IMG/VR virus record: IMGVR_UViG_3300020394_000940
Coordinates: 1-23,559 of that record
Strand: one strand, 5' to 3'
Length of the DNA stretch: 23,559 nucleotides
Source: a virus
Part shown: positions 7,085-22,800 of the stretch, piece after piece
Layout: every line of letters begins with the position of its first letter
Position numbering within the stretch: position 1 is the first letter of the stretch
Made by a program: the position numbers and the translations under genes
The notes under the pieces: model-generated
Told to the model about the DNA's origin: nothing
Database searches by the model: none
What the model saw: only the letters and a program-made list of their open reading frames with translations

Positions 7085-10000
7085 ATGCCAATTTCATTTA
7101 CAGAGAATTTACTATCATCAACTTATAGAGACGACTATAAAGATAGTAATAACTTTCATAGAATCTTGTTTAACTCTGGAAGAGCTTTGCAAGCACGTGA
7201 ACTTACACAGTCACAAACTATCTTGCAAAAAGAGATCGCGAGATTTGGAAAAAATATTTTCAAAGAAGGTGCTGCTGTAAATCCCGGTGGAATACTTGTA
7301 AATAGAAAATACGAATTCATAAAGCTTAACACCACTACTAATGCTTTACCTACTGACGTTACACCATTGATCGGAGACGAGTTTACTTCTGCTCCTACTG
7401 GAATTAAGTTTGTAGTATTAGAAATTGTTGCAGCAACATCAACGGATCCTGCAACTCTTTATGTGAGATACACAGATACCTCTGGAGGTACAGCTGGCTC
7501 AGAACCTGTTAGAGTTCCACCCGGAGAAAACATCACTGGTGCAAATTCAGGAGAAGTTCTTACAGTTCAATCTACAAATACTACAACTGACAAAGCTGTT
7601 GGTGTAGGAACTCGAGCATCTGTACATGGAGGTGACTTCTTTGTGCAGGGGCATTTTGTTAATGCTCAGCCTCAATCAATATTGATTGACAAGTATGGCA
7701 ACAGGCCTACTAAAAAAGTTGGATTTAAAGTTATACAAGATGTGGTCACAACTGCAGATGATGAGACACTCTTTGATAATCAAGGTGTGCTTCCAAATAA
7801 ATCAGCTCCTGGAGCAGATAGATTTAGAATCAGACTTGAGTTAACCACTCAGGATTTAGTTCTTGCAAATGAAAACTTTGTCTTCATGGCAGAAGTTGTT
7901 GAAGGTAGAGTTATGCAGACAGTTACTGGATTTGACCAGTACAATAAGATTAATGATCTTCTGGCTGCAAGGACAAAAGAAACAAACGGTGACTTTAATG
8001 TCAAGCCTTTCTTAATTAAGTTCGATGAAGATGATTCATTTCCAACTAAACTAAAGTTAAACGTTTCAAATGGTGTTGCTTATGTAAATGGATACAGAGC
8101 AAATCAACCTGTTCCTCAAAAGCTCAGTATTGATAAAGCACAGGACACAGTTACCATCAACAATCATGTGGCGATTGCTCAATACGGTAACTACTTTGAC
8201 ATTCAAGGAAATGTTGCGAATACAGGCGGCTTGGCTGTGACTCGTAATATTCGTGATTTGCCAAATATTGGGACTATGGAGAAGATGGATCTGAGATCCT
8301 CATTTAACTATGACTCTGCACCATTTCAAACTGCTGCTATAGGAACTCGCATTAGTGCAATCACTAAAGCTAATCCAGCAGTTGTCACAGTAGATAGTGC
8401 TTCGAATCTTCGTACTGGTGATAAAGTAAGAATCACAGGTATCGTTGGTATGACTCAATTGAATTCACAGGAACTATATGTTAGAACTACTTCAAATCCT
8501 GTCACATCATTTGAGTTATATGTTGATCCGGATTTACAAGTAGGACTTAACTCATCTGCTTACGGAACATTTAGTGCAGATGCTGGTGCAAAGATCGATT
8601 GGGGAACTTTAGGTAAAGCTCATGTAAGATATGTTCAGAACTTTAGCACTGGTGTTTACAGATGGTATCTGACAGATATTCAGATGAACCCAGGAAAATC
8701 TACTCGTCAGATCAGATCAATTGGAACTGCACAGAACAATGTAGGTAATATAGTTCTTGATGGGCTAACTGGAAATGCTGTACTTAAAGGAACTACTAAC
8801 AACTCACTTCTCTTTCCTCTACCAGAACAAAGAGCAAAGACTTTAACAGATATATCTTTGGAAGTTCAAAGATCATTTATTGGAAGTCTTGATGGAAGTG
8901 GTAAATTCTCATCCACGCTTTCTGCATCTGGAGAAACATTTGCAAATACTGCACAGTGGGTTGTAACATCTACAACTATTGGAGATCATAAGCCAAGATC
9001 AGGGTCATTCGCAATAAGTGGTGGCGGAATAACATTTGAATACACAGACGATTCAGGAGCAACTCAGGCTGGAGAGACCGTGCAGATTCTTGCGAAGGTA
9101 GCTAAGTCTCAAGGTGCTGTTCGTCCTAAAACACTTCAAACACTTGAATTAAAAGGACTAGACTTTGACTCAAACGGTGGAGCGGAAATAGTTCCAGCAC
9201 AGATCACTCTTCAAAAGCCAGATCTATTTAAAGTACTAAAGATTCTTGATAGCAGCGATTCATCTGACATCTCAGATAGATTCATTATTGATAATGGTCA
9301 AAGAGATAACTTTTATGGACCAGCAAGATTGATCTTAAAGGGTGGTGCTTCACGACCTTCAGGTACAAATAAAGTAAGAGCTAAGTTTCAGTACTTTACA
9401 CACGGTGCTTCTGGTGACTTCTTTACTTCACAGTCTTATTCAGGACAGATTGATTACGGTAAGATTCCAAAGCATACGAGAGCAGATGGAAATGTTGTTG
9501 AAGTTCAAAACTTTGTAGACTTCAGACCGCGTAAGGCAGATGCAAATCTTAAGACAGGATTCAGCACTGGATTTGATTCATCTTCTGCTGTGGTTAATGA
9601 GCTTCCAACTCCTACAGATAATATTCAGGCTGATGTAGAATATTACATGCCTCGACATGATAAGCTTGTTATTGATGAAGGGTCAAAGGTAAGACTCCTC
9701 AAAGGTACTTCAAGTCTTGATCCTAAGTATCCTGAGCTTCCTAATAACTGTTTAGAGCTTTACAGAATTAAATTGAATCCATTTACTTTTCATGATTCTG
9801 ATTTAGACATTGACCAGATCGAGCAAAAGAATTATACCATGAGAGATATTGGTAAGCTTGAAGAAAGAATTGATCAGGTCGAAGAGATGGCAAGTCTAAG
9901 CTTACTAGAAGTTGACTTGAAAAACCTTTCAGTGCTTGACTCAACTGGTGCAGATAGAACTAAAGCAGGTTTCTTAGTTGATAACTTTAGAGATCAGCTT

Positions 10001-12592
10001 GCATCAAACGTCGGAACTCTTGAGTATAGAGCTTCAATTGATCCAAGAGATCAGATCATGAGACCATCTTTCTTTGAAGACGCTATTGGCCTTGTGTATG
10101 ATTCAGCACAGTCAACTAATACTAGAAAGATGGGTGATAATATCTATCTTAAATTTACAGAGCAACTTTTCTTAAACCAGCCTCTTTATTCGCAGACTGA
10201 AAACATCAATCCTTTCCAAGTGATTGTTCATAGAGGAAGATTGAGAATATCACCGGGTTCAGATGACTGGAAAGAAGTAAAGCGACTTCCACCTAGAGTT
10301 ATTGACGGTGGATTCAGATTGAATCCTAATCAGGCAAATCTCTGGAATAGTTGGGAGTGGGCATGGGGTGGTACACCTTTAAACAGGCTTGCTGGAAGAA
10401 CTTTACAAAACACATCTAGCAATAGTGTTGAGGTTAGTGGTAATACTACTCGAACTTTTAGAAATACTAGTATCACAAGAGTTGTACATAGTGAAACTAT
10501 TAGAGAGTTCATTGAAGATAAGGTTGTTGATGTAGCAGTCATTCCATTTGCAAGATCAAGAAAGATTTATTTTAGAGCTCAGGGGATGAGACCTAATACA
10601 CAGATCTTCCCGTACTTTGATGGAATAAGAGTTGATGATTGGGTTAGAGAAGAACCTTTCCAAAATATTTCAGATGATCCTACACAATACGGAACAAGAT
10701 TTAATAGAGCAACAACTCACCCTGAAGGTTCTTCACCTCTGATTGCTAATGCTGCAGGTACGATTGAAGGATCATTCTTCTTGCCTAATACAAATGCTAT
10801 TAAGTTTAGAACTGGTGAAAGAGAACTTAAGTTCCTTGATATCACAGTAGATAATCAGGTAGATGCTGCTTCAATTGCAAGTGTGGTTTATACTTCAAAG
10901 GGAATACTTGAAACAAGACAAAGAAATTTCAGATCAACTAGACAATTAGATATTGTAAGAAATACAAGTAGAACTCTCATTGCTTTCCAGCAGGAAGATG
11001 ATGATAATAATGATGACGGCGGATCTGACCCATTAGCCCAGTCATTTAGAGTTGTACAACCTAACGGAATCTTTGCCACAAAGGTTGGTATTAGGTTTGC
11101 TACAAAAGATACAGTGATACCAGTGCAATGTCAGATCCGTCCTCTTGTAAATGGTATGCCTTCTGCCGAGGAGATTGTTCCTGGCGCAGTGAAATATCTT
11201 GAGCCTTCTTTGGTTAATACATCAGCAGATGGTACTGCACTCACTTACTTTAGTTTTGATGAGCCAGTTTACTTGAACGCTGGTGTGGAATATGCAATTG
11301 TTCTACTCGCAGAATCAATTGACTATAATGTGTATGTTGCAGAAACCGGAGAGTTTGTATTCGGATCAACTGAAAAGAAAATTACTAAGCAGCCTTCAAT
11401 GGGATCTATGTTCAAATCACAGAACGGTTCAACTTGGGAACCAGTTCAAAACTTTGACATGGCATTTGAATTACATAGAGCTGAATTTGTACCTTCAGGA
11501 AATGCTATCCTAGAAAACGCACATCCTCCATTTGAACTTTTAAATGTTGATGCTATCACAGCAACTTCAGGATCTACAAGGCTCGTTGTTCATCAACCAG
11601 ATCATGGCTTTAAGAGAACAGACAGAGCGAGAATCATGGGTCTTGATTCTTCCACTTCATATGCAGGTATCCTAGGTTCAAACATCATGGGCGTCAGAGT
11701 AGTTGACTCTTCTGATAATGACTTCTATACAATCACGGCCGGTACGGCTGCAACCTCAACAGGTGCGATTGGTGGAAGTACGATGTTTGCAGAGAAGAAC
11801 ATAGTGTTTGAACAGTTTACACCTTCAATTCAAACTATGATTCCTACATCTACTGATATATCTTTAAGCGGTAAGTTTACAACTGCTCAGTCAATTGCTG
11901 AAGATGTGCCGACCAAAGATTATAAGAAAGATGCGTTGTTCTCTACGCTTTCACTTGGTGAAAATAACTACTTCAATGATCCAGTCATGGTTCCATCGAA
12001 AAGAAATAGTGATCAGAACTTAGGCGTTGGAATTAACTCAACTACGTTTGCTGTGGCCATGAACACGATTTCCCCGGTTGTATCACCAGTTCTAGATATG
12101 CAAAGAGCTTCACTCTGGACAGTACATAACAGAATTGATTTCCAAGATAGTGGATCTGCAACTTATCCAAGAGGCGGTGCAGCAGGAACTTATCATACAC
12201 CTCTGGTCTATGTTCCAGAAACAGATAACACGGGTGGAACCTCAATTGCAAAGCATGTCACAAGACCAGTTGTTCTTGAAGCAGATGCAGTAGGATTGAG
12301 AATGACATTGGCAGCTAACAGGCCGACTGGTTCTGATTTCAGAGTTTACTACAAAGCCGTTACTGATGATGTAGCATTTGAAGATGTTAAGTGGACAGAA
12401 ATTATAAGAGAGAATGATCTACCAAGAGATGAGGATAGAATCACATTTAGAGATTATACATATCTGATAGGTGGACAAGGTGGAAATCTTCCTCCTTTCT
12501 CAAAATTTATTATTAAGATCGTAATGCATTCAACTAATAATGCTAGAGTTCCGGTATTTAAAGATCTTAGAGTTATAGCGATGGGAGCATAA
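7085..12592 (+). CDS. Giant baseplate/tail structural protein, DUF4815-like
   Basis: This 1835-residue protein is the largest in the window. The N terminus (YKDSNNFHRILFNSGRALQA, then RELTQSQTILQKEI) and the segment ending YTMRDIGKLEERIDQVEEMA (about residues 915-935, probable coiled coil) resemble what I recall of phage proteins carrying DUF4815. Near residue 1304 an acidic linker, EDDDNNDDGGSDPLAQSF, leads into a beta-rich C-terminal region with a repeated family look: VPVQCQIRPLVNGMP, SFDEPVYLNAGVEYAIVLL, and MGSMFKSQNGSTWEPVQNFD. This layout is typical of large wedge or fibre proteins in marine T4-like phages. It follows gp8, where T4 has gp9/gp10, and may act as a peripheral wedge arm or replace the N-terminal part of gp7 that is missing from the 3691-4644 protein. 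The ribosome site is AGGA, and the stop overlaps the next start as TAATG. The structural role is probable; the exact role is unknown. Confidence 0.7.
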   Translation: MPISFTENLLSSTYRDDYKDSNNFHRILFNSGRALQARELTQSQTILQKEIARFGKNIFKEGAAVNPGGILVNRKYEFIKLNTTTNALPTDVTPLIGDEFTSAPTGIKFVVLEIVAATSTDPATLYVRYTDTSGGTAGSEPVRVPPGENITGANSGEVLTVQSTNTTTDKAVGVGTRASVHGGDFFVQGHFVNAQPQSILIDKYGNRPTKKVGFKVIQDVVTTADDETLFDNQGVLPNKSAPGADRFRIRLELTTQDLVLANENFVFMAEVVEGRVMQTVTGFDQYNKINDLLAARTKETNGDFNVKPFLIKFDEDDSFPTKLKLNVSNGVAYVNGYRANQPVPQKLSIDKAQDTVTINNHVAIAQYGNYFDIQGNVANTGGLAVTRNIRDLPNIGTMEKMDLRSSFNYDSAPFQTAAIGTRISAITKANPAVVTVDSASNLRTGDKVRITGIVGMTQLNSQELYVRTTSNPVTSFELYVDPDLQVGLNSSAYGTFSADAGAKIDWGTLGKAHVRYVQNFSTGVYRWYLTDIQMNPGKSTRQIRSIGTAQNNVGNIVLDGLTGNAVLKGTTNNSLLFPLPEQRAKTLTDISLEVQRSFIGSLDGSGKFSSTLSASGETFANTAQWVVTSTTIGDHKPRSGSFAISGGGITFEYTDDSGATQAGETVQILAKVAKSQGAVRPKTLQTLELKGLDFDSNGGAEIVPAQITLQKPDLFKVLKILDSSDSSDISDRFIIDNGQRDNFYGPARLILKGGASRPSGTNKVRAKFQYFTHGASGDFFTSQSYSGQIDYGKIPKHTRADGNVVEVQNFVDFRPRKADANLKTGFSTGFDSSSAVVNELPTPTDNIQADVEYYMPRHDKLVIDEGSKVRLLKGTSSLDPKYPELPNNCLELYRIKLNPFTFHDSDLDIDQIEQKNYTMRDIGKLEERIDQVEEMASLSLLEVDLKNLSVLDSTGADRTKAGFLVDNFRDQLASNVGTLEYRASIDPRDQIMRPSFFEDAIGLVYDSAQSTNTRKMGDNIYLKFTEQLFLNQPLYSQTENINPFQVIVHRGRLRISPGSDDWKEVKRLPPRVIDGGFRLNPNQANLWNSWEWAWGGTPLNRLAGRTLQNTSSNSVEVSGNTTRTFRNTSITRVVHSETIREFIEDKVVDVAVIPFARSRKIYFRAQGMRPNTQIFPYFDGIRVDDWVREEPFQNISDDPTQYGTRFNRATTHPEGSSPLIANAAGTIEGSFFLPNTNAIKFRTGERELKFLDITVDNQVDAASIASVVYTSKGILETRQRNFRSTRQLDIVRNTSRTLIAFQQEDDDNNDDGGSDPLAQSFRVVQPNGIFATKVGIRFATKDTVIPVQCQIRPLVNGMPSAEEIVPGAVKYLEPSLVNTSADGTALTYFSFDEPVYLNAGVEYAIVLLAESIDYNVYVAETGEFVFGSTEKKITKQPSMGSMFKSQNGSTWEPVQNFDMAFELHRAEFVPSGNAILENAHPPFELLNVDAITATSGSTRLVVHQPDHGFKRTDRARIMGLDSSTSYAGILGSNIMGVRVVDSSDNDFYTITAGTAATSTGAIGGSTMFAEKNIVFEQFTPSIQTMIPTSTDISLSGKFTTAQSIAEDVPTKDYKKDALFSTLSLGENNYFNDPVMVPSKRNSDQNLGVGINSTTFAVAMNTISPVVSPVLDMQRASLWTVHNRIDFQDSGSATYPRGGAAGTYHTPLVYVPETDNTGGTSIAKHVTRPVVLEADAVGLRMTLAANRPTGSDFRVYYKAVTDDVAFEDVKWTEIIRENDLPRDEDRITFRDYTYLIGGQGGNLPPFSKFIIKIVMHSTNNARVPVFKDLRVIAMGA

Positions 12593-12807
12593 TGAGACCT
12601 ACACATAAATTAAAAGTTGAAGGTGCTACTGGTTTCGTGAGAGACATGAGTAATGGCGCTATCCTGTATACAAAGCAGGAAGAAGTTAATGAGGCGAGGC
12701 ATCGTAAAGCGCAAAGACTCGCAAAGGAAAACAGAATTGATAAACTAGAAAATGATGTTTCAGAAATAAAAGAAATGCTAAAAGTATTGGTGGAGAAAAA
12801 TGGCTAA
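12592..12807 (+). CDS. Small coiled-coil phage protein, conserved type, function unknown
   Basis: This 71-residue protein has two parts. The first is a short beta hairpin-like segment, KVEGATGFVRDMSNGAILYT (residues 8-27). The second is a charged helix from about residue 28 to the end, with ENRIDKLENDVSEIKEMLKV showing heptad spacing of I/L/V, a likely coiled coil. Small proteins with a VRD...GAI segment followed by a Lys/Glu-rich coiled coil are, as I recall, common in T4-like marine phages next to large structural genes; I know no assigned function. It overlaps the preceding stop (TAATG) and the following gene by eight bases, so it is almost certainly translated with them. It could be a minor virion part or an assembly factor. 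Confidence 0.7.
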   Translation: MRPTHKLKVEGATGFVRDMSNGAILYTKQEEVNEARHRKAQRLAKENRIDKLENDVSEIKEMLKVLVEKNG

Positions 12808-13321
12808 AAAAATATCAGTAGATGTCAATGAACTCATTGAACAGTGGAGGGTCAAGACTAATACTCTCGCAAACCAAGTAGGTGATCTCGATGACTTAAC
12901 AGACAGCGCGGCAAATGTAGTTGCAGCGATTGTGGCTTTACAAGACGCTTCGGTAACAGGTCCTGTCACGGTACGTATTAACGATATTGTTAATGCTAAT
13001 AACGCGTTAAAATTTCCAGTAGATAGTTCAAGAGTTGGAACCGGTGCGATAACAGCTACAAAGTTTGCTGATAGTTCTATAACTACTCCTAAGTTTGTAC
13101 CAGATGCTGTAGACTCTAATGCACTTGGTGCAAATGCAGTTCATGCTCAACATATAGATAATGATGCAATAATTAATCGTCACTATGCAGACTCATCTAT
13201 TGATGCTGCATTTATTAAACAAAATCAAATCACATCTAGAGAATTCAAAGGACTCGTAACGTTCACTATCAAGAGCGATAGTGGAACGACATTGAAGCAA
13301 ATATTTGGCCCAGGAACTTGA
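12800..13321 (+). CDS. Short fibre-like structural protein
   Basis: This 173-residue protein has an N-terminal helical segment (VNELIEQWRVKTNTLANQVG, residues 9-28) of the kind that opens many T4-like marine fibre proteins and probably docks to the baseplate. A run of imperfect short repeats follows, with I-T/S-x-x-K/H-F/Y-A-D-S-S-I spacing (AITATKFADSSITTPKFVPD, later IINRHYADSSIDAAF). This is typical of a trimeric fibrous shaft, in which each turn contributes a strand. The C terminus (FTIKSDSGTTLKQIFGPGT) is short and could fit into a partner. The start lies eight bases inside the previous gene and the next gene begins three bases after the stop. The fibre assignment rests on composition and repeats, not on recognised homology. 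Confidence 0.6.
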   Translation: MAKKISVDVNELIEQWRVKTNTLANQVGDLDDLTDSAANVVAAIVALQDASVTGPVTVRINDIVNANNALKFPVDSSRVGTGAITATKFADSSITTPKFVPDAVDSNALGANAVHAQHIDNDAIINRHYADSSIDAAFIKQNQITSREFKGLVTFTIKSDSGTTLKQIFGPGT

Positions 13322-13324
13322 ACT

Positions 13325-14422
13325 ATGGCGGTGAGAAAACCTTTAAAGTATGTAGCCGATACATTACAGGAAATGACATCAGCTGAAATAGCTGCATTCA
13401 TTCCTTATTGCAAATGGGCATATGCTCTGCATCCTTCGGTTGATGTAAGTACATTGAGCTCGCGTGGCAATGGAACTGAATACACCAGATCATCACTACT
13501 GACTACAACAGATACAAGAAAAATTAACACACAAGTAGCATCTGGCGTTAGTAGTTTTCCATCACAAGGCTCGCTGGGCGGAATAGGTACTGTAACAACT
13601 AATGTTGAATTATTTCAATACGTACTAAATCAAAACTCTGAGCTGTTTCAAGGAAGAACTAAAGTAGACAACAGGCCTCCAAGAACATATCCAATATATT
13701 GGGATGGGTCAGCTATAAGGCCAATGAGTCAGCAAGATATGTTTGACACTTTTTATTCAACTGCTTTGACAGAACTTGCAGACGGAACGGATCAAGATGG
13801 AACGTTTAGAATTTCCACTGATGCGAGCTTAGCTGGACATACCGGAAACAATGCAACTAAAGTATGGAGTGTTGGCGTTCTACCCGGCGGAAATATAGGG
13901 CCTTTACCTGATGGAGATGGTAGCGGAAGCGTGACTGGAATGATAGACACCCGAGCAAATGCTGGTGCGTATTCTATCCCATCACAAGTGTATGGGGATC
14001 AGCCTACAACTATAAACACATACACGGTTCTTCAAACTTACTCAGGAGATAATCCACCTGCAACTTTGAAACCTTTATACATCGATTCAGCTGGTGACGC
14101 GTTTCAATTTAAGCTTGAAAGAATGCCGTACTATAATTCTGGCAATAACAGCGTAGATGATGACTTAACATATTTGTCAGCATTGATAGGTAAAGATATG
14201 ATGGCATACGCTTCATATAAAGCAGCAAGCACAAATCAAAGAATACGTTATCACGCTTCATCTGGAAATATTAGAGGTTCTCAAATGACCGACACGGTGC
14301 TGAATGGATCTGGTGCATACACCACTCACCAGTTCAATACAGATAATTATACTGCAACAAACTTTCCTAATGGATCGCCGGTGACACAGAGCACATACAC
14401 TTTAAGAATAGAAAACGCATAG
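13325..14422 (+). CDS. Tail fibre-like or baseplate-associated structural protein
   Basis: This 365-residue protein opens MAVRKPLKYVADTLQEMTSA, a start I associate with virion structural proteins of marine T4-like phages (a KPL..V..TLQEM.. segment). The following region contains WAYALHPSV near residue 32 and a Gly/Ser/Thr/Asn-rich beta body. Residues near 118-135 (RPPRTYPIYWDGSAIRPM) and the Gly-rich stretch GPLPDGDGSGSVTG (about 197-210) look like exposed loops. No enzyme motif is seen. It starts three bases after the preceding fibre-like gene with AGGA as ribosome site (nine-base spacing), and ends just before the AGGAG of the next gene. This is probably the last gene of the first structural module. 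A receptor-binding or fibre-tip role is plausible but unproven. Confidence 0.55.
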   Translation: MAVRKPLKYVADTLQEMTSAEIAAFIPYCKWAYALHPSVDVSTLSSRGNGTEYTRSSLLTTTDTRKINTQVASGVSSFPSQGSLGGIGTVTTNVELFQYVLNQNSELFQGRTKVDNRPPRTYPIYWDGSAIRPMSQQDMFDTFYSTALTELADGTDQDGTFRISTDASLAGHTGNNATKVWSVGVLPGGNIGPLPDGDGSGSVTGMIDTRANAGAYSIPSQVYGDQPTTINTYTVLQTYSGDNPPATLKPLYIDSAGDAFQFKLERMPYYNSGNNSVDDDLTYLSALIGKDMMAYASYKAASTNQRIRYHASSGNIRGSQMTDTVLNGSGAYTTHQFNTDNYTATNFPNGSPVTQSTYTLRIENA

Positions 14423-14431
14423 GAGTTAATT

Positions 14432-14938
14432 ATGTCATTAGAAAATGCAAAACTTATGATGGCCTACTACACACATGAAGATAGGACTAACTGTAGAGCC
14501 GAATGGATGAAAGATGATGGTAATATCTATGCTGAAGACATTAGGCCAGAACCTGGGAATGCACTATGGGAAGATCTCTTAGAGCACTGTGATCTCGAAG
14601 ACATTCAGAACTGGACATTTCAATATCAGCATGAATCAAGAAAAGGATTTGAAGAAGATGTTATTGAGGTCGCAAGGAAAGAAGGTTTAGTTTGGGATGT
14701 GAGAGATGCTGATGCAATGGAACTCTATAAAGGATTTGCAAAAGCTATCTTTGATAATGATTGGGAAAATGATAAGTTAGCAAAAGAAAAATTATTCTGC
14801 TTTAAGCTTCAGGTGTTTGAACTAAATACTTTTAAGAAGTCAAAGAATAAAGAACTGAAAAGCCAACTTAGGAAATGCCAGAATATGATAGAGGCGGTGA
14901 CTATAGCATGTCAGATTCATCAAGAAATGTACAGCTAG
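14432..14938 (+). CDS. Unrecognised acidic helical protein
   Basis: I do not recognise this 168-residue protein. It is acidic and mostly helical in pattern, with many Trp residues (WMKDDG, LWEDLL, NWTFQYQHES, LVWDVRD, NDWEND) and an amphipathic C-terminal half (KLAKEKLFCFKLQVFE, then LKSQLRKCQNMIEAVTIACQ). There is no signal peptide, membrane segment or catalytic motif that I can see. The start is well supported by AGGAG, which overlaps the previous stop (TAGGAG), seven bases before ATG. Its end overlaps the nitroreductase-like gene, so the two are probably co-translated. It may be a small regulatory or chaperone-like protein. Its place between the fibre genes and the enzyme island does not decide its function. 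Confidence 0.6.
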   Translation: MSLENAKLMMAYYTHEDRTNCRAEWMKDDGNIYAEDIRPEPGNALWEDLLEHCDLEDIQNWTFQYQHESRKGFEEDVIEVARKEGLVWDVRDADAMELYKGFAKAIFDNDWENDKLAKEKLFCFKLQVFELNTFKKSKNKELKSQLRKCQNMIEAVTIACQIHQEMYS

Positions 14939-15534
14939 AAAAAATTATAAAGCAATCTTCTTGGTGCCAAAGAAACTGGAATCTATCTAAATCAATATCC
15001 GAAAGAGATATCCAAACTTTAAAGTACGCGGTCACTCATTGTCCAAGTAAACAGAATCGCGTATTTTACAAAGCTCTATTCATTCAAGATAGAAATATCA
15101 TACAAGCAATTCATGATTCATCTGATTCATTTACTATCAGATGGGATCCTCATGAAGCTGTTACCAATACACAAACACTAGCAAATCTTTTAGTAGTCTT
15201 TGTAAGAGACAGAGATGAAAACACACTTGCGCGTACAGAAAAAGAATATGACAAAGGTGTGATAGATGGAAAAACTAAAACTGATGAAGATCGTTCAGTA
15301 GGAATTGCAGGAGCGTATCTAGCATTTGCTGCCAATATGTTAGGATACAGAACAGGATTTTATAACATACTTCATAATAAGAAAAGAGTTGAGTCTATAC
15401 TAAACACTTCTAATGTCTTGCTTTCTGTAGGTGTTGGATTTCATAATGAAGACGTGAATATCAGACAATCTCATGTTTGGCCTGAATTTACATATCCATC
15501 GTTTGAAAAAAATATTCAGGTTGAAGACATATGA
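14908..15534 (+). CDS. Nitroreductase-fold protein
   Basis: This 208-residue protein carries features of the FMN-dependent nitroreductase superfamily. At residues 21-50, RNWNLSKSISERDIQTLKYA leads into the CPSKQN loop, comparable with the family's N-terminal Arg and P-S-x-x-N signature that contacts FMN. At 130-152, SVGIAGAYLAFAANMLGYRT matches the family's Gly-Ala...long helix...lGy/lG segment. VGVGF (174-178) fits the late strand. Family members reduce nitro groups, quinones or flavins with NAD(P)H; the substrate here is unknown. The RxxxR-type phosphate contact is only partly visible, so activity is uncertain. I chose ATG at 14908 (GGTGA seven bases upstream). The ATG at 14875 would add 11 residues, but its AGGA lies only one base away. 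The gene overlaps the previous one by 31 bases, and converges on and overlaps the dioxygenase gene by 19 bases. Confidence 0.65.
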   Translation: MSDSSRNVQLEKIIKQSSWCQRNWNLSKSISERDIQTLKYAVTHCPSKQNRVFYKALFIQDRNIIQAIHDSSDSFTIRWDPHEAVTNTQTLANLLVVFVRDRDENTLARTEKEYDKGVIDGKTKTDEDRSVGIAGAYLAFAANMLGYRTGFYNILHNKKRVESILNTSNVLLSVGVGFHNEDVNIRQSHVWPEFTYPSFEKNIQVEDI

Positions 15535-16136
15535 TTGATCAACTTCATTACTGTCTTATCATTTATCTCAATATTGAAAACTAGAAATGAGCAATCATAA
15601 ACTGCAAACACAGTATGTTCTTGTAAAGTGTTTATGAAATAAGCTCGACCGTGTTCAAAAAATAGTGGCTTATCCTCAAGACAAAACCACATCGAAGGTG
15701 GGTTACAATTCTTCAGTGGCACAAATAGTCTAAATACATCTACACTTCCACGTGGTCCACCATGATCTCTATGAGGTGGAAACATTCCTCCCGGCTGCAT
15801 GCGAATAACATGACTCCTGCCGACATGTCCGTCAAAAGGATCTGTATATGTTCGAACATAATCAGCGGCCTCAGTAGGTTGGTTAAATGACATTTCATTC
15901 AACCTAACTTTATTCTCTATACAATATTCTTTGACCGAATCTAAATCTGGTACACCAGTGAATCCTCCATCCAATGAATATAGGCTTAATCCTTCACGCC
16001 CAGGTTTCTTTCTAGGATTGTATGGTTTCCATAAATGAGAAAAGTGTTTAAGATCACTTAACGTTTCATTTGGAGATTGATAAAGGTTTAAAGAAAATTT
16101 AGACCCATACTGCAGGATATCTTTATATGTCGACAT
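15516..16136 (-). CDS. 2-oxoglutarate/Fe(II) dioxygenase-like, Asp/Asn beta-hydroxylase type
   Basis: This 206-residue protein has a double-stranded beta-helix metal triad pattern. His122-x-Asp124 lies in MFPPHRDHGG, and a distal His174 in INTLQEHTVF is about 50 residues later. SHVIRMQPGG just before the HxD and FEHGRAYFINT just before the distal His fit the aspartyl/asparaginyl beta-hydroxylase and related 2OG oxygenase family (typical pattern GxxxxPHxD...H). Arg136 (VFRLFVPL) could bind 2-oxoglutarate. Such enzymes hydroxylate protein side chains or small molecules using O2, Fe(II) and 2-oxoglutarate, releasing CO2 and succinate; the substrate here is unknown. It is the last gene of the - strand unit, with a good ribosome site (GGTGGAG five bases before ATG on the - strand) and a 14-base overlap with the upstream glycosyltransferase-like gene. 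Confidence 0.75.
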   Translation of the reverse strand: MSTYKDILQYGSKFSLNLYQSPNETLSDLKHFSHLWKPYNPRKKPGREGLSLYSLDGGFTGVPDLDSVKEYCIENKVRLNEMSFNQPTEAADYVRTYTDPFDGHVGRSHVIRMQPGGMFPPHRDHGGPRGSVDVFRLFVPLKNCNPPSMWFCLEDKPLFFEHGRAYFINTLQEHTVFAVYDCSFLVFNIEINDKTVMKLINHMSST

Positions 16137-16680
16137 ATTTACTCCACCACCCTTCTTCTTTCATGTGTTCATGTCTTTGATTGAATAGGTACACCGGATA
16201 ATCCTTCTCTTCCTGTTCAGTTTGAAAAGAAACAAATCCATCCTCAAATAATTTAGGCTTGAAGTATTTCCAAAGATACTCATCTATGCCTTTCCAGAAT
16301 CTTGTGTAGTACCAATCTAAATCTTCATGTATTTTATCATGTATATGTGAGTAGTCTCCACGCCAGGATAATATACTTGAGTTCATAGGTAATGTGTTCC
16401 AACTTGGCTTGAGTGCATGTAGTTCTTCGGTTAGAAATCTATTACAATCTCCTTTTATGATTGTGTCAAGATCAAAGTATATATTTTGGCAATCATCTTT
16501 AAAGTACTTGAACATCAGTAACTTATTAAATGTATTGTACTCATCATTGTAGACGTGATCTCTTATCACATGAAAGGAATCGTATTTGATATTTGAATAT
16601 GTATCAATCATATGCTTGATTCTATTCTCATACCAAACATCATACTTAGCACCGGTTCGTACTAATATAACTCTAGTCAA
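16123..16680 (-). CDS. Glycosyltransferase-like protein with DxD motif (compact)
   Basis: The protein opens TRVILVRTGAKYDVWYENRI, resembling the first strand and nucleotide-binding loop of GT-A fold (GT8-like) transferases. It has YNTFNKLLMFKYF before IYFDLDTIIKGD, where FDLD (residues 69-72) is the candidate metal/nucleotide-sugar DxD. The end, PVYLFNQRHEHM, is of the kind that closes the active site in GT8-like proteins. At 185 residues it is short but seems complete. I prefer the TTG at 16680 as start: the conserved-looking first strand begins there, the overlap with the upstream gene is then eight bases (TTGACTAG), and a GAG lies seven bases upstream. An ATG at 16734 would add 18 residues with no family look and overlap by 62 bases. 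The sugar donor and acceptor are unknown. Confidence 0.65.
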   Translation of the reverse strand: MTRVILVRTGAKYDVWYENRIKHMIDTYSNIKYDSFHVIRDHVYNDEYNTFNKLLMFKYFKDDCQNIYFDLDTIIKGDCNRFLTEELHALKPSWNTLPMNSSILSWRGDYSHIHDKIHEDLDWYYTRFWKGIDEYLWKYFKPKLFEDGFVSFQTEQEEKDYPVYLFNQRHEHMKEEGWWSKYVDI

Positions 16681-17176
16681 GACTGTACTCGAAATTTTGG
16701 CAGGTTTCAGATTTGTTGATAAGCTTTGCACCATTTCTAATATGAAACTTAGTAGCCATCTCTGTTAATGGACTCAATGTGACAAGCCTTTTTATTGAAT
16801 ATGATTCTTTCACTAAAGCTTGTAACTCATTCACAATAGTTCTTCCAGCTCCCGGTTTGTTACTCCATACAGTGTATGCAACGGCGATGGATCCTGTAGT
16901 GAAACGTTCACGAATATCATCCATTGTTCTACCACATCCGAGACATATATCATTTTCATCAAGTTTACAGACTCCTATGCAAGGTGAATCTTCTAGTTTG
17001 AAAAGTTCTAATTCCTCTTCGCTGGTTGGCACTTCTTTACAATGACATACACATATTACTGCAGACAAGTCGTCTAGCACAAACACCTGTTTTCCAGAAC
17101 CTATCTTTTCAAGATGAGGTCTTACTGGATCTTCCTTAAGAATCTCTAATTCATTTTCTTCTATTTCTCTAACCAA
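16673..17176 (-). CDS. GNAT-like acetyltransferase with internal DUF1289-type four-Cys insert
   Basis: This protein has about 167 residues from TTG at 17176, or 171 from TTG at 17188; there is no ATG near. The frame shows an N-terminal half (RPHLEKIGSGKQVFVLDD, then AVICVCHCKEVPTSEEELEL) and a C-terminal half (VAYTVWSNKPGAGRTIVNEL, then KRLVTLSPLTEMATKFHIRN) that together look like an acetyltransferase of the GNAT superfamily. PGAGR stands at the acetyl-CoA pyrophosphate loop (usual pattern R/QxxGxG/A). Between the halves sits DSPCIGVCKLDENDICLGCG, a C-x3-C-x7-C-x2-C module matching DUF1289 (usual SPC.GVC.L.....C.GCGR). DUF1289 probably binds a metal. Three more Cys residues precede it (CVCHC). 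The start at 17176 gives an eight-base overlap (TTGGTTAG) with the upstream gene. Substrate unknown; the fold call is moderate, the DUF1289 call stronger. Confidence 0.65.
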   Translation of the reverse strand: MVREIEENELEILKEDPVRPHLEKIGSGKQVFVLDDLSAVICVCHCKEVPTSEEELELFKLEDSPCIGVCKLDENDICLGCGRTMDDIRERFTTGSIAVAYTVWSNKPGAGRTIVNELQALVKESYSIKRLVTLSPLTEMATKFHIRNGAKLINKSETCQNFEYSLD

Positions 17177-17978
17177 AGCTATACTCAAAATTTTTATTTA
17201 CGTGGTGAATTAAATGTGCAATCACTGTATGATCTGGCATACCCGGTCTTCTCTTATCCAGTATATAATTCCATGCATCTCCTGTATTGTGATGAGGCAC
17301 ACCATACTTTTCAATAATATATGTTATGAACACTTCGTTGTTATAACAAAAATATTTTGAAATCTCTTCAGGATACAGGCTATCTTCTTTTGCTTCATCC
17401 AATGTATCCTTACATTCTTGTAGTCTTTCTTCAAACGACAAATTCTTTATGACTTCCTTTCCTGCTGTCACTACTCCTGTATTGTACAGGATAGGACTTG
17501 TGTCTTTATCTTCCAGCTGTAGCATTGCATTCTTTGCGCAGGTTTTAACATACACGTTCCTCTCATCAAATGCATCATTGTCAAATAAGAATTGTAATCT
17601 TTCACCTCTTATCTGACCAACATAACTTCTTTCTAATGATAGAGCATTAATCTTGCTGAGATCCAGCTCCTCAAATACATTTTTATTTGTGTTAGGAACC
17701 ACATCAAAATCAAGATAGCATACTTCATCATATCCTTCTTTCACAAAGTCTTGTAAAGCAATGAGCTTTTCCAAGTTAACGTCTACATAATCTCGTATCT
17801 CTGTATTGATTAAGATATAATCAGCCTTGCATCTTTCAGCATATACTTTCTGTAAAGATTCCAGATGTTCTTTATATGCTTCATACTTTGATCTCTTATC
17901 ATCAGGCGCAGACGAATGCTCCTTGAGATCATTCGTATAGATGCTGTATATTATTCTCTTTGCACCATGATTTGACAT
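17169..17978 (-). CDS. Glycosyltransferase-like protein (paralogue of its upstream neighbour)
   Basis: This 269-residue protein has a GT-A-like order of motifs: first strand KRIIYSIYT (residues 7-15), a helix with KYEAYKEHLESLQKVYAERC, VCYLDFDVVPNTNKN with candidate DxD at 89-92, LYNTGVVTAG (164-173) as the acceptor-side strand, and a C-terminal AHLIHHVNKNF that resembles the metal-binding His of GT8-like enzymes. The same motifs in the same order occur in the gene upstream (KRIIYSLYI, ILYLDFDAVP, VFNTGIIGIN, IIHIVNKRF), so the two are paralogues. ATG at 17978 has a good ribosome site (AGAGG seven bases before ATG) and lies 50 bases inside the upstream gene. The stop overlaps the GNAT-like gene. 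Donor sugar and acceptor are unknown. Confidence 0.65.
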   Translation of the reverse strand: MSNHGAKRIIYSIYTNDLKEHSSAPDDKRSKYEAYKEHLESLQKVYAERCKADYILINTEIRDYVDVNLEKLIALQDFVKEGYDEVCYLDFDVVPNTNKNVFEELDLSKINALSLERSYVGQIRGERLQFLFDNDAFDERNVYVKTCAKNAMLQLEDKDTSPILYNTGVVTAGKEVIKNLSFEERLQECKDTLDEAKEDSLYPEEISKYFCYNNEVFITYIIEKYGVPHHNTGDAWNYILDKRRPGMPDHTVIAHLIHHVNKNFEYSFG

Positions 17979-18843
17979 AGCTAAACCTCTTATTCACGAT
18001 ATGTATTATCTTGGCCTCTTCTTGAATATGACTAGTCTTATCAAAAAACATATGCCAATCATTATCCAGTAGTTGAGTAGGAACTTTATTGAGCATTGTT
18101 TTATATCCCCAAATAGTTTCGTTGTCCCAACCAAACATTGACCTCACATAGTCAGGCCACATCCCATTATCATCCTCTTTCAACTCATCCATCATATTCA
18201 TAACATAATCAAAGTCATCAAAATAATTAAGACGGTTCAGATGTTCTCTATTTATTCCTATGATTCCGGTATTAAACACCTGTGAGTAATCACCATCGAT
18301 CCCATCATATAAAACCATGGCTCTTTGATTCCAATACTTTGCGGTAGGAGATCTATTAGAAGCTTTACCAAACTTCTTTCTTTGCCTTTCATCAAATAGT
18401 ATATGCTCTAAAAATTGAACAGCTCTATCTGTACTTGTCTTTATAGCTATTCCATCATTTAGATTCCATACATCAAAGAAGTTTTCGGTAGTTACTGGAA
18501 CAGCATCAAAATCTAGATAAAGGATCTCATCATATTCATTAGCAAGCTCATATAATAAATGCAGCTTATAAAAGTTAACTATGTTGTATCCAGTTATCTG
18601 AGGATATTTATTCTGAAACCATGCCTGATAATCTAAGTATTTTTTATCAGCTATAAATAACTTATAGTCTACGCCTATCTTGTCAGCATACTGTTCATGC
18701 ATTTTTGTGAGCCAAGGCGACCACTCTTGAAATAAAAGTTTTGTTCTCTCTGTCTTTGGAAGAGTGTCACCTAAGTAAGGCGGTTGATAGTCCAGCATTT
18801 CTTTTGGAATATCAATATATAGACTGTATATAATTCTTTTCAT
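17929..18843 (-). CDS. Glycosyltransferase-like protein, first gene of the - strand unit
   Basis: This 304-residue protein has GT-A-like motifs: KRIIYSLYI at the N terminus, VDYKLFIADKKYLDYQAWF, a long helix NIVNFYKLHLLYELANEY, ILYLDFDAVP with candidate DxD at residues 110-113, VFNTGIIGIN (189-198) and EAKIIHIVNKRFSYVKSW (276-293). It is longer than its downstream paralogue, mostly in the region between the DxD and NTG motifs (KFGKASNRSPTAKYWNQR). It resembles small phage and host glycosyltransferase-like proteins that act on surface glycans, but I cannot assign a CAZy family. Its ATG shares the palindrome CATG with the divergent methyltransferase start, and no clear ribosome binding site or promoter is visible upstream on the - strand. 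Translation may be weak or leaderless, or the true start may lie elsewhere. The downstream four genes all overlap, so it probably leads an operon. Confidence 0.65.
   Translation of the reverse strand: MKRIIYSLYIDIPKEMLDYQPPYLGDTLPKTERTKLLFQEWSPWLTKMHEQYADKIGVDYKLFIADKKYLDYQAWFQNKYPQITGYNIVNFYKLHLLYELANEYDEILYLDFDAVPVTTENFFDVWNLNDGIAIKTSTDRAVQFLEHILFDERQRKKFGKASNRSPTAKYWNQRAMVLYDGIDGDYSQVFNTGIIGINREHLNRLNYFDDFDYVMNMMDELKEDDNGMWPDYVRSMFGWDNETIWGYKTMLNKVPTQLLDNDWHMFFDKTSHIQEEAKIIHIVNKRFSYVKSWCKENNIQHLYE
18652..18659 (+). promoter_or_regulatory. Candidate late promoter, antisense inside a glycosyltransferase-like gene
   Basis: Exact TATAAATA on the + strand, 182 bases before the methyltransferase start and antisense to the gene in which it lies. 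It could drive the methyltransferase, for which no other promoter is visible. Octamers of this kind are expected by chance a few times in AT-rich DNA of this length, so confidence is low. Confidence 0.3.
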
Positions 18844-19450
18844 GGATATATGTATTATGCTTTATAACTACCACACTCTTCTAGACGTGATTGATTACAG
18901 TTCAGAGATCAGTCCGAAGCATGTTAGACCTTTGATCAGGCATCTTACTAATGAGCAACTTGAAAGTAAGAAGTGGGTATGTGATGAACTTGAAACTTAT
19001 ATGAAAGCTATTGATGAGCCGAACGTGCTAGTCCTAGCCGGTTGGTTCGGATTGCTTGCACAAATGATTCGTAATAGATATGATGCTAAAGTAACATCAA
19101 TTGATATTGATCCTATGTGTGCTAAGTTTGGAAGAATGCTTTATGACAAAGATATTACATTCAAGCACAAGGCAATAGAAGACTTTGGGCATAGAGATAC
19201 CCGAAGTCATAATATCATTATATGTACATCATGCGAACATGTTTCAGATGAAGTTCTTCATGATTTCCTTTCTTTAAGAGAACTTGGAACGTTGGTTATA
19301 CTTCAATCTAATAACTATTATATACCAGAACACATCAATTGTAAACCAAAAAATGAAGATTTTGTAAAAAGTTTGCCTCTCAGAAAGGTGTTGTATAGTG
19401 AAACGATGTCTTTTGAAAGATATGACAGGTACATGGTCATAGGATTATAA
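18842..19450 (+). CDS. SAM-dependent methyltransferase-like protein
   Basis: This 202-residue protein has Rossmann-fold methyltransferase features. Motif I-like NVLVLAGWFGLLAQMI lies at residues 61-76, with the Gly-rich turn as AGWFG. VTSIDIDPMC (84-93) has the acidic residue expected to hold the SAM ribose. NIIICTSCEHVSDEVLHDFL (124-143) occupies the motif IV position. The late strand region is LGTLVILQSNNYYIPEHINC. Family members methylate small molecules, glycans, proteins or nucleic acids; the target here is unknown. It starts divergently from the - strand unit on the same CATG, and ATG at 18857 is an alternative with no better ribosome site. It is followed by a late promoter and the second fibre module. 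Its small size and place suggest that it belongs functionally with the modification-enzyme island. Confidence 0.65.
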   Translation: MDICIMLYNYHTLLDVIDYSSEISPKHVRPLIRHLTNEQLESKKWVCDELETYMKAIDEPNVLVLAGWFGLLAQMIRNRYDAKVTSIDIDPMCAKFGRMLYDKDITFKHKAIEDFGHRDTRSHNIIICTSCEHVSDEVLHDFLSLRELGTLVILQSNNYYIPEHINCKPKNEDFVKSLPLRKVLYSETMSFERYDRYMVIGL

Positions 19451-19453
19451 ATA
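19446..19453 (+). promoter_or_regulatory. T4-type late promoter before the second fibre module
   Basis: Exact TATAAATA that overlaps the TAA stop of the methyltransferase gene and lies 31 bases before the ATG of the BppU-like gene. It probably starts late transcription of the whole downstream fibre module. Confidence 0.78.
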
Positions 19454-19484
19454 GATCCGAAGGAACTTTATTTAGAGATAGGCC

Positions 19485-19844
19485 ATGGCACAATACGAAG
19501 AACTACAAATTGACCAGGGCACTGATGTATCTATCAATCTTGAACTCACAGATACAGCCGGTGTCATAAAGAACTTGACTGGCTATACTGTCAAGGCTGG
19601 AATAAAAAAGACATATAACACAAAAGACTCGGACGCAACTCTATTCACATCGACAATCACATCTCCTTCAACAGCAGGTAAAGTCAACTTAGCTTTGACT
19701 AATATACAGACCAATACTACCAATATGCCGGCTGGAAGATATGTGTATGATGTAGAGTTGTCAAAACTTGATAGTAGCAACAATAATATAATTGAAAGAA
19801 TTCTTGAAGGTATCGTTACTGTAAAGCCCCAAGTCACGCCCTAG
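19485..19844 (+). CDS. BppU-like immunoglobulin-type domain protein
   Basis: This 119-residue all-beta protein opens EELQIDQGTDVSINLELTDT, followed by NLTGYTVKAGIKK and ATLFTSTITSPSTAGKVNLA. The C terminus is MPAGRYVYDVELSKLDSSNN and EGIVTVKP. This strand order matches the N-terminal domain of BppU, the upper baseplate protein of lactococcal phages: D-x-G-x-x-x-x-x-x-L, then (V/A)xxxI, then a Y-x-Y/F-D-V/L strand. In BppU this domain attaches receptor-binding parts to the baseplate. Here it directly precedes the large fibre gene, ending ten bases before it, so an adaptor or fibre-base role is likely. A late promoter lies just upstream; the ribosome site is weak (GATAGG). Confidence 0.65.
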   Translation: MAQYEELQIDQGTDVSINLELTDTAGVIKNLTGYTVKAGIKKTYNTKDSDATLFTSTITSPSTAGKVNLALTNIQTNTTNMPAGRYVYDVELSKLDSSNNNIIERILEGIVTVKPQVTP

Positions 19845-19853
19845 GAGACGTTG

Positions 19854-22800
19854 ATGGCAACAAAGGTAATAGTAGGCGACAAGACGATTGTCAAAAAAGT
19901 CGTTGTCGGCGTACCTCAATCGCAGAACATTGCTGCGCAAGGTCTTATAGCTACACTTGGCGATGTTGACGGTACGGTCAATAGATCAAACGGTGTACTT
20001 TTAAGATATGATTCTGATGCTGCAAAGTGGAAACACATTCAGCTTAAGACTGCACTTGCTCAAAATATCAGTATCACTAATGTTCCAAATGTAGGTGGAA
20101 CTCTTGCTTTTGATTCGAATGCTGGTGGTGTATTTACATTCACCGGTCCTACTCCTACACAGATAAGACAACACTACAGCGCCTTTTCTCAAAATAACGA
20201 TCTTACCTATGATTCAACAACAGGTAAGTTTAGCTTTAATGATTCTGACTTTGCACGAACAGATCGCAGAGACATATATCACAGGGGATTAAAGCTTCCA
20301 ACTGCTCAACATATAAGTTTCAAAGATTCATCTACTACCATAAAAGAATCTGGTGGTGATTTTGAATTTAGAAATAAATCAGGCAATATTAATATACTGC
20401 CTAATGACGGCCAATCACTTGTTGTAAAATCAGATAGTGATGGCTCACTTATCATACAGGCAAGTGATGTTGGTGGTGTACAACTTTATCATACAAGCGG
20501 AAAAGAAAGATTTACAACAACTGACTCTGGTGTAAGAGTTAAAGGTGACTTTATTGTCGATTCAGATGCAGTTGTTAACGGAACACTTTATGTCAAGCAG
20601 GCCACAACCCTTAACAGTACGTTAACGGTTGAAGATTCAGCTCATATTAAAGATGGGTTGACAGTTGATTCAGATCTTAAAGTAAAAGGTAATATTATTG
20701 TTGATGGAACTCTTACGAGTTCTATTACACCTGCAAATGTAAGAGAACATTTCAGTGCAGGTGGAGATCTTACTTATGATTCTTCAACTGGTAAGTTTAG
20801 CTTTGACGTTGAGGCAGTATACACAAAAGCTAATTTTGATTCTGATTTAGGATTAGCAAACACAGGACAACTTCCAGAAGGAAGCAATTTATATTTCACC
20901 ACAGCTAGAGCACGCCAATCAGTATCTGTAACTGACAATGGAGGTGATGGATCACTTTCATATGATAGTGGAACTGGTGTTATATCATACACAGGACCTA
21001 GTGCTGAAGAAGCACGGCTTCATATTTCTGTTAATGATGTCGGTGGCGACGGAAGTCTTTCTTATGATAACACTTCAGGTGTCATAACATACACAGGTCC
21101 AAGTGCTGCTGAAGTACGAGCACACTTTAGTGCTGGTGCAAGTTTAACTTACGATGCTTCAACCGGTCAATTCACGACAAACCAAGCACTCGACTCAAAC
21201 AGCAATGTTACTTTCAATCAAGTAAGAGGCCCTGCTGAATTCATCATTGATCCGGCTGCTGTAGGTGATAACACTGGAACAGTCAAGATCCTAGGTAACT
21301 TACAGGTTGAAGGAACACAGACTACGCTCAACTCAACTGCAGTTACTATAAATGATAAGAACATTGTAATTGCAGATAGTGCTGCTGATAGTTCAGCCTT
21401 ACATGGTGGAGGCATTACATTTGGTGGTGCTAACATTGGCAATAAACCTACATTTAGTTATTCTCACGCTGATAAGAGATTTCAGTTCAATAGAAATATA
21501 CAGGCTGACAGTTTTATTGGTGACGTCACAGGTAATGTAACCGGTAACTTAACCGGAAATGTTACAGGTCAAGTCAGTGACATATCAAATCATACTACTA
21601 GTGATTTAGCAGAAGGTTCAAATTTATATTACACTGACACCCGAGCAAGAAATGCTGTAAGCGCAGTAGATTCTGGTGGTGATGGTGCATTCTCATATGT
21701 AGCAGCTACAGGTAAGTTTAAGTATCGTGGACCTAGTGCATCAGAAGTAAGAGCACACTTTTCAGCTGGTGGAGACCTGACATATGATTCAACAACTGGT
21801 AAGTTTCAGTTTGATGTAGAATCTGTTTACACAAAAGCAAACTTTGATTCTGACTTAGGACTTGCAAATACGGGTCAACTGCCTGAAGGATCGAATCTTT
21901 ATTACACAACAGCAAGAGCTGACTCAGCATTTGATGTAAGATTAGCCACAAAGACAACAAGCGATTTGGCTGAAGGATCTAATCAATACTACACTGAAGC
22001 TAGAGTCAATACAGTATTCGGGAAGAGAACAACTGACTCATTATCAGAAGGTTCTACTAATTTATACTTCACAAATGAAAGAGCACAAGATGCTTTAAGT
22101 TCTTCATTTGTTCATTCCAATCATACTAATATAACTGCTACATATGATGATCCTTCTGGTGAAATAAGAATAGCAGCAGCTCAACAATTTAATGACTCAG
22201 ATGCAAGACATGCAATTACAGTTGCAGATTCGGGTGGATTTGGCCATCTTAATTACAATCAAGATGCAGGCCTGATACAATACAAAGGTGTTACTTCTAC
22301 AGAAATAAGATCACAATTCTCAGCTACAGGAACTGGATTCCAGTATGATAGTGCAACTGGTAAGTTTACATTAACACCAGCAGCAACTTATAATAAAGCT
22401 AAATTTGATTCTGACTTCAATTTGACCTCAACAGATTCTTTATCTGAAGGAAGCAGTAACTTATATTTCACAGAACCAAGAGTCAATACCGTCTTCGGAA
22501 AAAGAACAACAGATTCATTATCCGAAGGAACTACGAATAAATACTATACAGACACTAGAGCAAGAAATGCACTTACAGTCATTGATTCTGGTGGCGATGG
22601 CAGACTTACATATACAGCATCTACAGGAAGATTAGTATATAAAGGTCAAAATGATTCAGAGTTCTTCCAGCATCTTGAGGATAATGGAAGCAGCCTAGGG
22701 GAACTTACATATGACTCTTCTAATAAGTTTAGAGTTACTTCTGCGTTCTTTACTGGCAAGCCTACAGCCGGTACATTGTCGACAGATTCGGATAAGATCC

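Follow-up and report, generated by a model that had tools for sequence, protein, structure and literature searches.

The IMG/VR contig IMGVR_UViG_3300020394_000940, whose full 23,559 bases are called here the window, carries between its structural genes a compact island of 4.5 kb that is most likely a late-expressed glycan-tailoring cassette. The conserved core of this island is a tandem pair of glycosyltransferases (GTs), named GTc and GTb, usually accompanied by MT, an enzyme of the class I S-adenosylmethionine (SAM) fold, and by a third glycosyltransferase, GTa. By contrast, a 2-oxoglutarate (2OG)/Fe(II) oxygenase (AspH), a nitroreductase-like flavoenzyme (NTR) and a GNAT-fold protein with a DUF1289 insertion are optional. 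We tentatively favour a reading in which this late island, with the ordered GT pair at its core, would act on a surface protein of the virion, a possibility to which we give slightly less than an even chance. The source phage is a pelagimyophage-like relative of the Kyanoviridae, and among isolates Pelagibacter phage Mosig (EXVC030M) comes closest in the genes of the island.

GTc (17929..18843, minus strand) and GTb (17169..17978, minus strand), the first and second members of the tandem GT8-like pair, belong to one family, in whose alignment the DxD motif is invariant. Glyco_transf_8 (PF01501) is matched by 5 of 14 members of this family (best 3.2e-6), the window GTb alone scoring 0.0088, under the cut-off, as do most window proteins against curated Pfam cut-offs when taken singly. 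When viral contigs were scanned with the alignment of the GT family, 304 relatives were obtained, 80 of which were kept, and 23 non-identical islands were counted, each bounded by the fibre-assembly gene and by either o14432 or s13325, with the GT family present by selection. In these bounded islands, 40 of 41 GT copies lie on the strand opposite to that of the structural genes, the orientation seen in the window being therefore kept in relatives, whereas MT is oriented with the structural genes in 11 of its 17 copies. A FastTree tree splits the first and second members of the pair according to their position at all 91 of 91 tips (split support 0.75), and in two relatives both GTs are fused into one open reading frame (ORF) of about 570 amino acids (L022:12276-13997 and L039:17683-19392). 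Minimal islands consist of the GT pair only (L058) or add GTa or MT to it (L073, L104). The sequence-only reading, which had placed an island of modification enzymes, partly reversed against the surrounding late genes, between two fibre modules, is supported in that a block centred on glycosylation lies there with its glycosyltransferases facing against the structural genes.

The same reading had suggested that the seven genes could form one pathway, and neither this nor the conservation of all seven as a unit is supported by the comparison: GTa is found in 19 of the 23 islands and MT in 17, but AspH in only 6 and NTR in 4, and AspH, NTR and GNAT are also located elsewhere in relatives. Between GTb and GTa, where the window has GNAT, several relatives carry a gene for a radical SAM protein, and expanded islands carry a DegT aminotransferase, radical SAM/SPASM proteins and a carbamoyltransferase, all of them consistent with sugar-tailoring chemistry. 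The island as a whole is accessory, since the 38-kb stretch read of phage C48C1 (OQ984149) contains neither the GT family nor GTa, MT, NTR, AspH or GNAT. That NTR, AspH and GNAT are all optional genes found elsewhere as well would suit a gathering of unrelated accessory genes at a hypervariable site, with no common pathway beyond the GT pair. We regard this as improbable, because the GT pair is repeatedly clustered with MT and GTa, the order of the pair is kept, and GNAT relatives adjoin an MT in other contigs too (L011/L012). Less probable still is the production of a small-molecule or peptide natural product with the radical SAM protein, oxygenase and nitroreductase as tailoring enzymes. Radical SAM/SPASM, 2OG oxygenase, nitroreductase and decarboxylase-like GNAT types do co-occur in relatives, but neither a core synthetase nor a precursor peptide was identified, and glycosyltransferases form the constant core and are all that minimal islands such as that of L058 contain.

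At the equivalent site of C48C1, genes 0203 and 0204 (L130:33598-35030) carry an IDADME motif in one case and a WHNN motif in the other. By eye, they resembled a DxD glycosyltransferase and an oxygenase, a resemblance confirmed by no library or PDB match.

Late expression is suggested by the distribution of TATAAATA, the T4 late promoter box. It occurs six times in the window, always on the plus strand, against 1.67 expected, and four of these six boxes sit 19-32 nucleotides upstream of structural genes. In relatives, it precedes 14 of 94 heads of antisense operons but only 8 of 474 internal antisense genes (Fisher p 5e-7), with a background of 0.8% in random 95-mers; entries were dropped only if their upstream stretch was identical, so that these counts are not fully independent. 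Structural genes carry the box about as often as the antisense heads (41 of 321; p 0.6), and the conserved antisense orientation therefore does not imply the separate timing that had been suggested for the reversed genes. One relative (L003) has a facing pair of late boxes between GTc and MT. Within the window island, a box at 18652..18659 (plus strand), identical in L009, lies antisense inside GTc and is a candidate promoter of MT; its function stays a candidate one because it falls in conserved coding sequence. Another, at 19446..19453 (plus strand), belongs to the downstream fibre-assembly gene. A sigma-70 scan of positions 12500-20500 found 41 sites versus 32.9 (standard deviation 5.6) in shuffled sequences, which says little.

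The window island may be a compact form of an accessory glycan-tailoring island of pelagimyophage-related marine T4-like phages, which occupies a single site, with VrlC/fibre genes on one side and the fibre-assembly gene on the other. What the sequences themselves show is this fixed site, the antisense GT copies, the constant order of the GT pair and the late boxes of relatives. The paralogous GT8-like enzymes GTc and then GTb would add sugars sequentially to the acceptor, GTa would extend or prime the sugar chain, and the MT-fold enzyme would cap or modify the glycan. The oxygenase, nitroreductase and decarboxylase-like GNAT might tailor the sugar or the acceptor in the window phage, a set for which relatives would substitute radical-SAM, DegT aminotransferase or carbamoyltransferase genes. 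To judge from the late boxes in relatives, the island genes would be expressed late, alongside those of the virion. As acceptor, we lean slightly towards a surface protein of the virion, for instance one of the fibres or the baseplate, over the host envelope. This preference stems from the late boxes just mentioned, from the constant position of the island next to fibre assembly, and from the lack of cellular homologues in one limited scan. Phage virion O-glycosylation has a precedent in the work of Freeman et al. 2023, as cited in PMC11652166. That mycobacteriophage case likewise involves phage-encoded sugar transfer onto phage products, but it concerns other hosts and phages and its acceptor has been demonstrated, whereas that of the island is a proposed one.

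Alternatively, and quite possibly, the enzymes could remodel the host surface, altering the lipopolysaccharide (LPS) or its O-chain and thereby blocking adsorption of rival phages, or of the phage's own progeny on debris. Such a role has been put forward for the pelagimyophage host recognition cluster, which is rich in GT8, a family described as mainly one of LPS biosynthesis (PMC7029224), and the DegT aminotransferase and carbamoyltransferase of expanded islands would suit surface sugars. Late expression, as suggested by the boxes of relatives, speaks against it, exclusion being less useful at that stage, as does the absence of cellular GT homologues in the one scan run. Several observations nevertheless weigh against virion glycosylation. 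GTc distances correlate with those of GTb (Mantel r 0.36) and MT (r 0.31), which speaks for the proposed cassette, and also with those of o14432 and, more weakly, of s19485, but GTc divergence is not coupled to that of the nearby putative fibre s13325 (Mantel r -0.09), which a fibre-specific transferase might be expected to track; this uncoupling favours host remodelling. The head of GTc in the window has no exact late box, its best approximation being TATAAAGC. The published view of the region (PMC7029224) is host O-chain modification. Finally, the scan of genome contigs, which gave three matches only, all on contigs with phage structural genes, used a single short peptide pattern and could have missed cellular GT homologues.

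The contigs L048, L049 and L050, filed under bacterial metagenome-assembled genomes (two Gammaproteobacteria and one Rhodobiaceae), carry the island together with phage structural genes and therefore look like phage sequence binned as bacteria. A cellular origin of the GT genes was considered and set aside, the genome contigs scan with its one short peptide pattern having returned only phage contigs binned in this way.

Glycosyltransferases also modify DNA in T4-like phages, and hypermodification of the phage genome through glycosylation is a further alternative to glycosylation of the virion. We consider it very remote: the best matches are of GT8 type and not DNA glucosyltransferases, the genes are associated with late boxes in relatives, and among more than 100 SAR11 genomes a single one codes for a restriction system (PMC7029224).

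The gene classes assigned from the sequence alone hold at the family level, with two corrections concerning GNAT and MT. All seven ORFs are present in the window, and they are true genes rather than chance ORFs, since relatives of every one of them are recognisable at the protein level in contigs of other marine phages. The overlapping minus-strand unit of five genes is likewise confirmed, with overlaps of 14, 62, 20 and 50 nucleotides along AspH, GTa, GNAT, GTb and GTc. GTc is nearly unchanged in a near relative (L019, 94% identical copy). GTa (16123..16734, minus strand) is glycosyltransferase-like, with a DxD motif invariant in the alignment of its family and a 38% identical homologue in Mosig; its similarity to GT-A enzymes is weak (profile E 0.013 with glycogenin and 0.29 with LgtC-type proteins), making it the weakest class assignment of the island. 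PHROGs gave no functional name to any island protein, GTb having a sub-threshold match to a "transcriptional regulator" (E 0.51), and no island protein exceeded a curated NCBIfam cut-off, the match of GTb to LIC_10202 being sub-threshold.

MT (18842..19450, plus strand) is the first correction: the supposed SAM-methyltransferase has the class I SAM fold, but its motifs (GGWYG, TSCEH and HIN) are divergent. Its model has the Rossmann methyltransferase fold (Z 17.9 over 155 residues) and structure searches recovered generic class I methyltransferases, whereas NCBIfam offered only sub-threshold matches to UbiG (17.7 bits vs 102.95), SigI and CntL. A spermidine synthase/aminopropyltransferase was the top PDB sequence match, but this identity was rejected because the catalytic D(S/T)(S/T)DP is replaced by TSCEH. 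MT and GTc are divergent and their start codons overlap by two nucleotides (18841-18844), the distance in relatives ranging from overlap to about 45 nucleotides.

GNAT/DUF1289 (16673..17188, minus strand) is the second correction. Both sequence and predicted structure suggest that this GNAT-fold protein aligns best with the malonyl-CoA-decarboxylase (MCD) branch, so that the acetylation step suggested for it is not supported. The family profile matches MCD at 9.5e-5, and both its TLSP and FHxxNGA motifs align to MCD, with S139 and H149 invariant in 10 aligned members; the TLSP serine and the FHxxNGA histidine are the catalytic pair in MCD. Its predicted model (pLDDT 84; like the other island models, built from alignments without Mosig rows) matches GNAT chains at Z 10.5-12.6, headed by SxtA-DC, MCD, GphF and CurA (Z 12.6-11.8), decarboxylase-type matches exceeding the other GNATs (at most 11.5) by about one Z unit at most. 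The island protein has the fold and the two motifs in common with MCD, CurA, GphF and SxtA, but its length is far smaller, the stretch that separates the motifs in those enzymes is missing, and DUF1289 is inserted. This Cys motif, at amino acids 68-93, matches PF06945 (E 2e-11, 44 bits vs a cut-off of 27) over positions 1-26 of 47 only, and is carried by the window and the near relative L009 but by none of the 8 other aligned relatives. The Mosig homologue lies outside the island, at 110 kb, and is without DUF1289. In L011/L012, amid radical SAM genes, an MT homologue comes immediately after a GNAT relative that has no DUF1289.

AspH (15516..16136, minus strand) falls in the Asp/Asn-hydroxylase / cis-proline-hydroxylase class, with the iron ligands HxD...H and the 2OG arginine (H122-R-D124 ... 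R136 ... H174) invariant in 8 aligned members, 6 of these 8 matching PF05118 (best 1e-7), although the window protein itself does not; its Mosig homologue is 42% identical. The sequence-only reading had drawn a parallel with collagen, in which hydroxylated side chains are glycosylated, but no window protein contains a Gly-X-Y run of at least four, which argues against such a target. For NTR (14908..15534, plus strand; ORF open from 14875), the start at 14908 is favoured because it fits the starts in relatives. Its family profile matches PDB nitroreductases at 6e-5, and PF00881 scores 0.032 with the window protein, under the cut-off, and 3e-4 with one relative. In L026-L030 and L040, an NTR homologue lies between gp25 and gp6, on the same strand, within the baseplate operon.

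The window carries T4-like baseplate and fibre genes, with homologues of gp25, gp6 and gp8, and both C48C1 and Mosig are classified as Kyanoviridae in their records. A large VrlC-type protein (7085-12592), which matches the Mosig VrlC gene (E 3.5e-171), is followed by small fibre genes and then by the island, after which come an L-shaped-fibre-assembly-like gene and a fibre-like protein of 1020 amino acids, so that structural genes flank the island on both sides, VrlC-type baseplate/fibre genes upstream and the other two downstream. The island starts four small genes downstream of VrlC, and the end of the window falls within the fibre module. Its first boundary, o14432 (14432..14938, plus strand), is a conserved gene which adjoins the GT pair or occupies the equivalent site in most relatives, and is also present in Mosig and, without the GT pair, in C48C1. 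The second, s19485 (19485..19844, plus strand), is L-shaped-tail-fibre-assembly-like (phrog_3304, 1e-16). Viral contig scans with the single proteins GTa and o14432 gave no matches.

This type of region is already known, because the site matches the pelagimyophage host recognition cluster (HRC), a hypervariable region with GT8 glycosyltransferases described by Zaragoza-Solas et al. 2020 (PMC7029224). The HRC, like the island, starts downstream of VrlC, contains GT8 glycosyltransferases beside tail fibres, and sometimes includes radical SAM cassettes, as several island relatives do. The window island differs in its compact 4.5-kb form with AspH, NTR and a decarboxylase-like GNAT, and the other HRC boundary, the neck gene gp14, has a position outside the window. 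The Mosig island (54.7-71.8 kb) holds homologues of AspH, GTa, GTc and MT plus an NTR-like gene between homologous boundary genes, but it is longer, with 24 genes including DegT, radical SAM, carbamoyltransferase and others, and has one GTbc gene only. A limited literature check, covering parts of the papers concerned, yielded no mention of an ordered antisense GT pair, a swappable third gene or a DUF1289-bearing decarboxylase-like GNAT.

In its boldest form, the proposal would be that an apparently virus-restricted, ordered and antisense two-GT module, shared by marine T4-like phages, builds a variable, elaborately tailored glycan on their own tail fibres late in infection, so that fibre glycosylation would be widespread among pelagimyophage-like viruses and quick to diversify; in this full extent we find it doubtful. 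The DUF1289-bearing, decarboxylase-like GNAT provides a concrete enzyme candidate. The constant core, an ordered antisense GT pair usually with MT, together with its swappable tailoring enzymes, amounts to a testable unit of two or three genes and narrows the question to two clear options, glycosylation of the virion or remodelling of the host surface.

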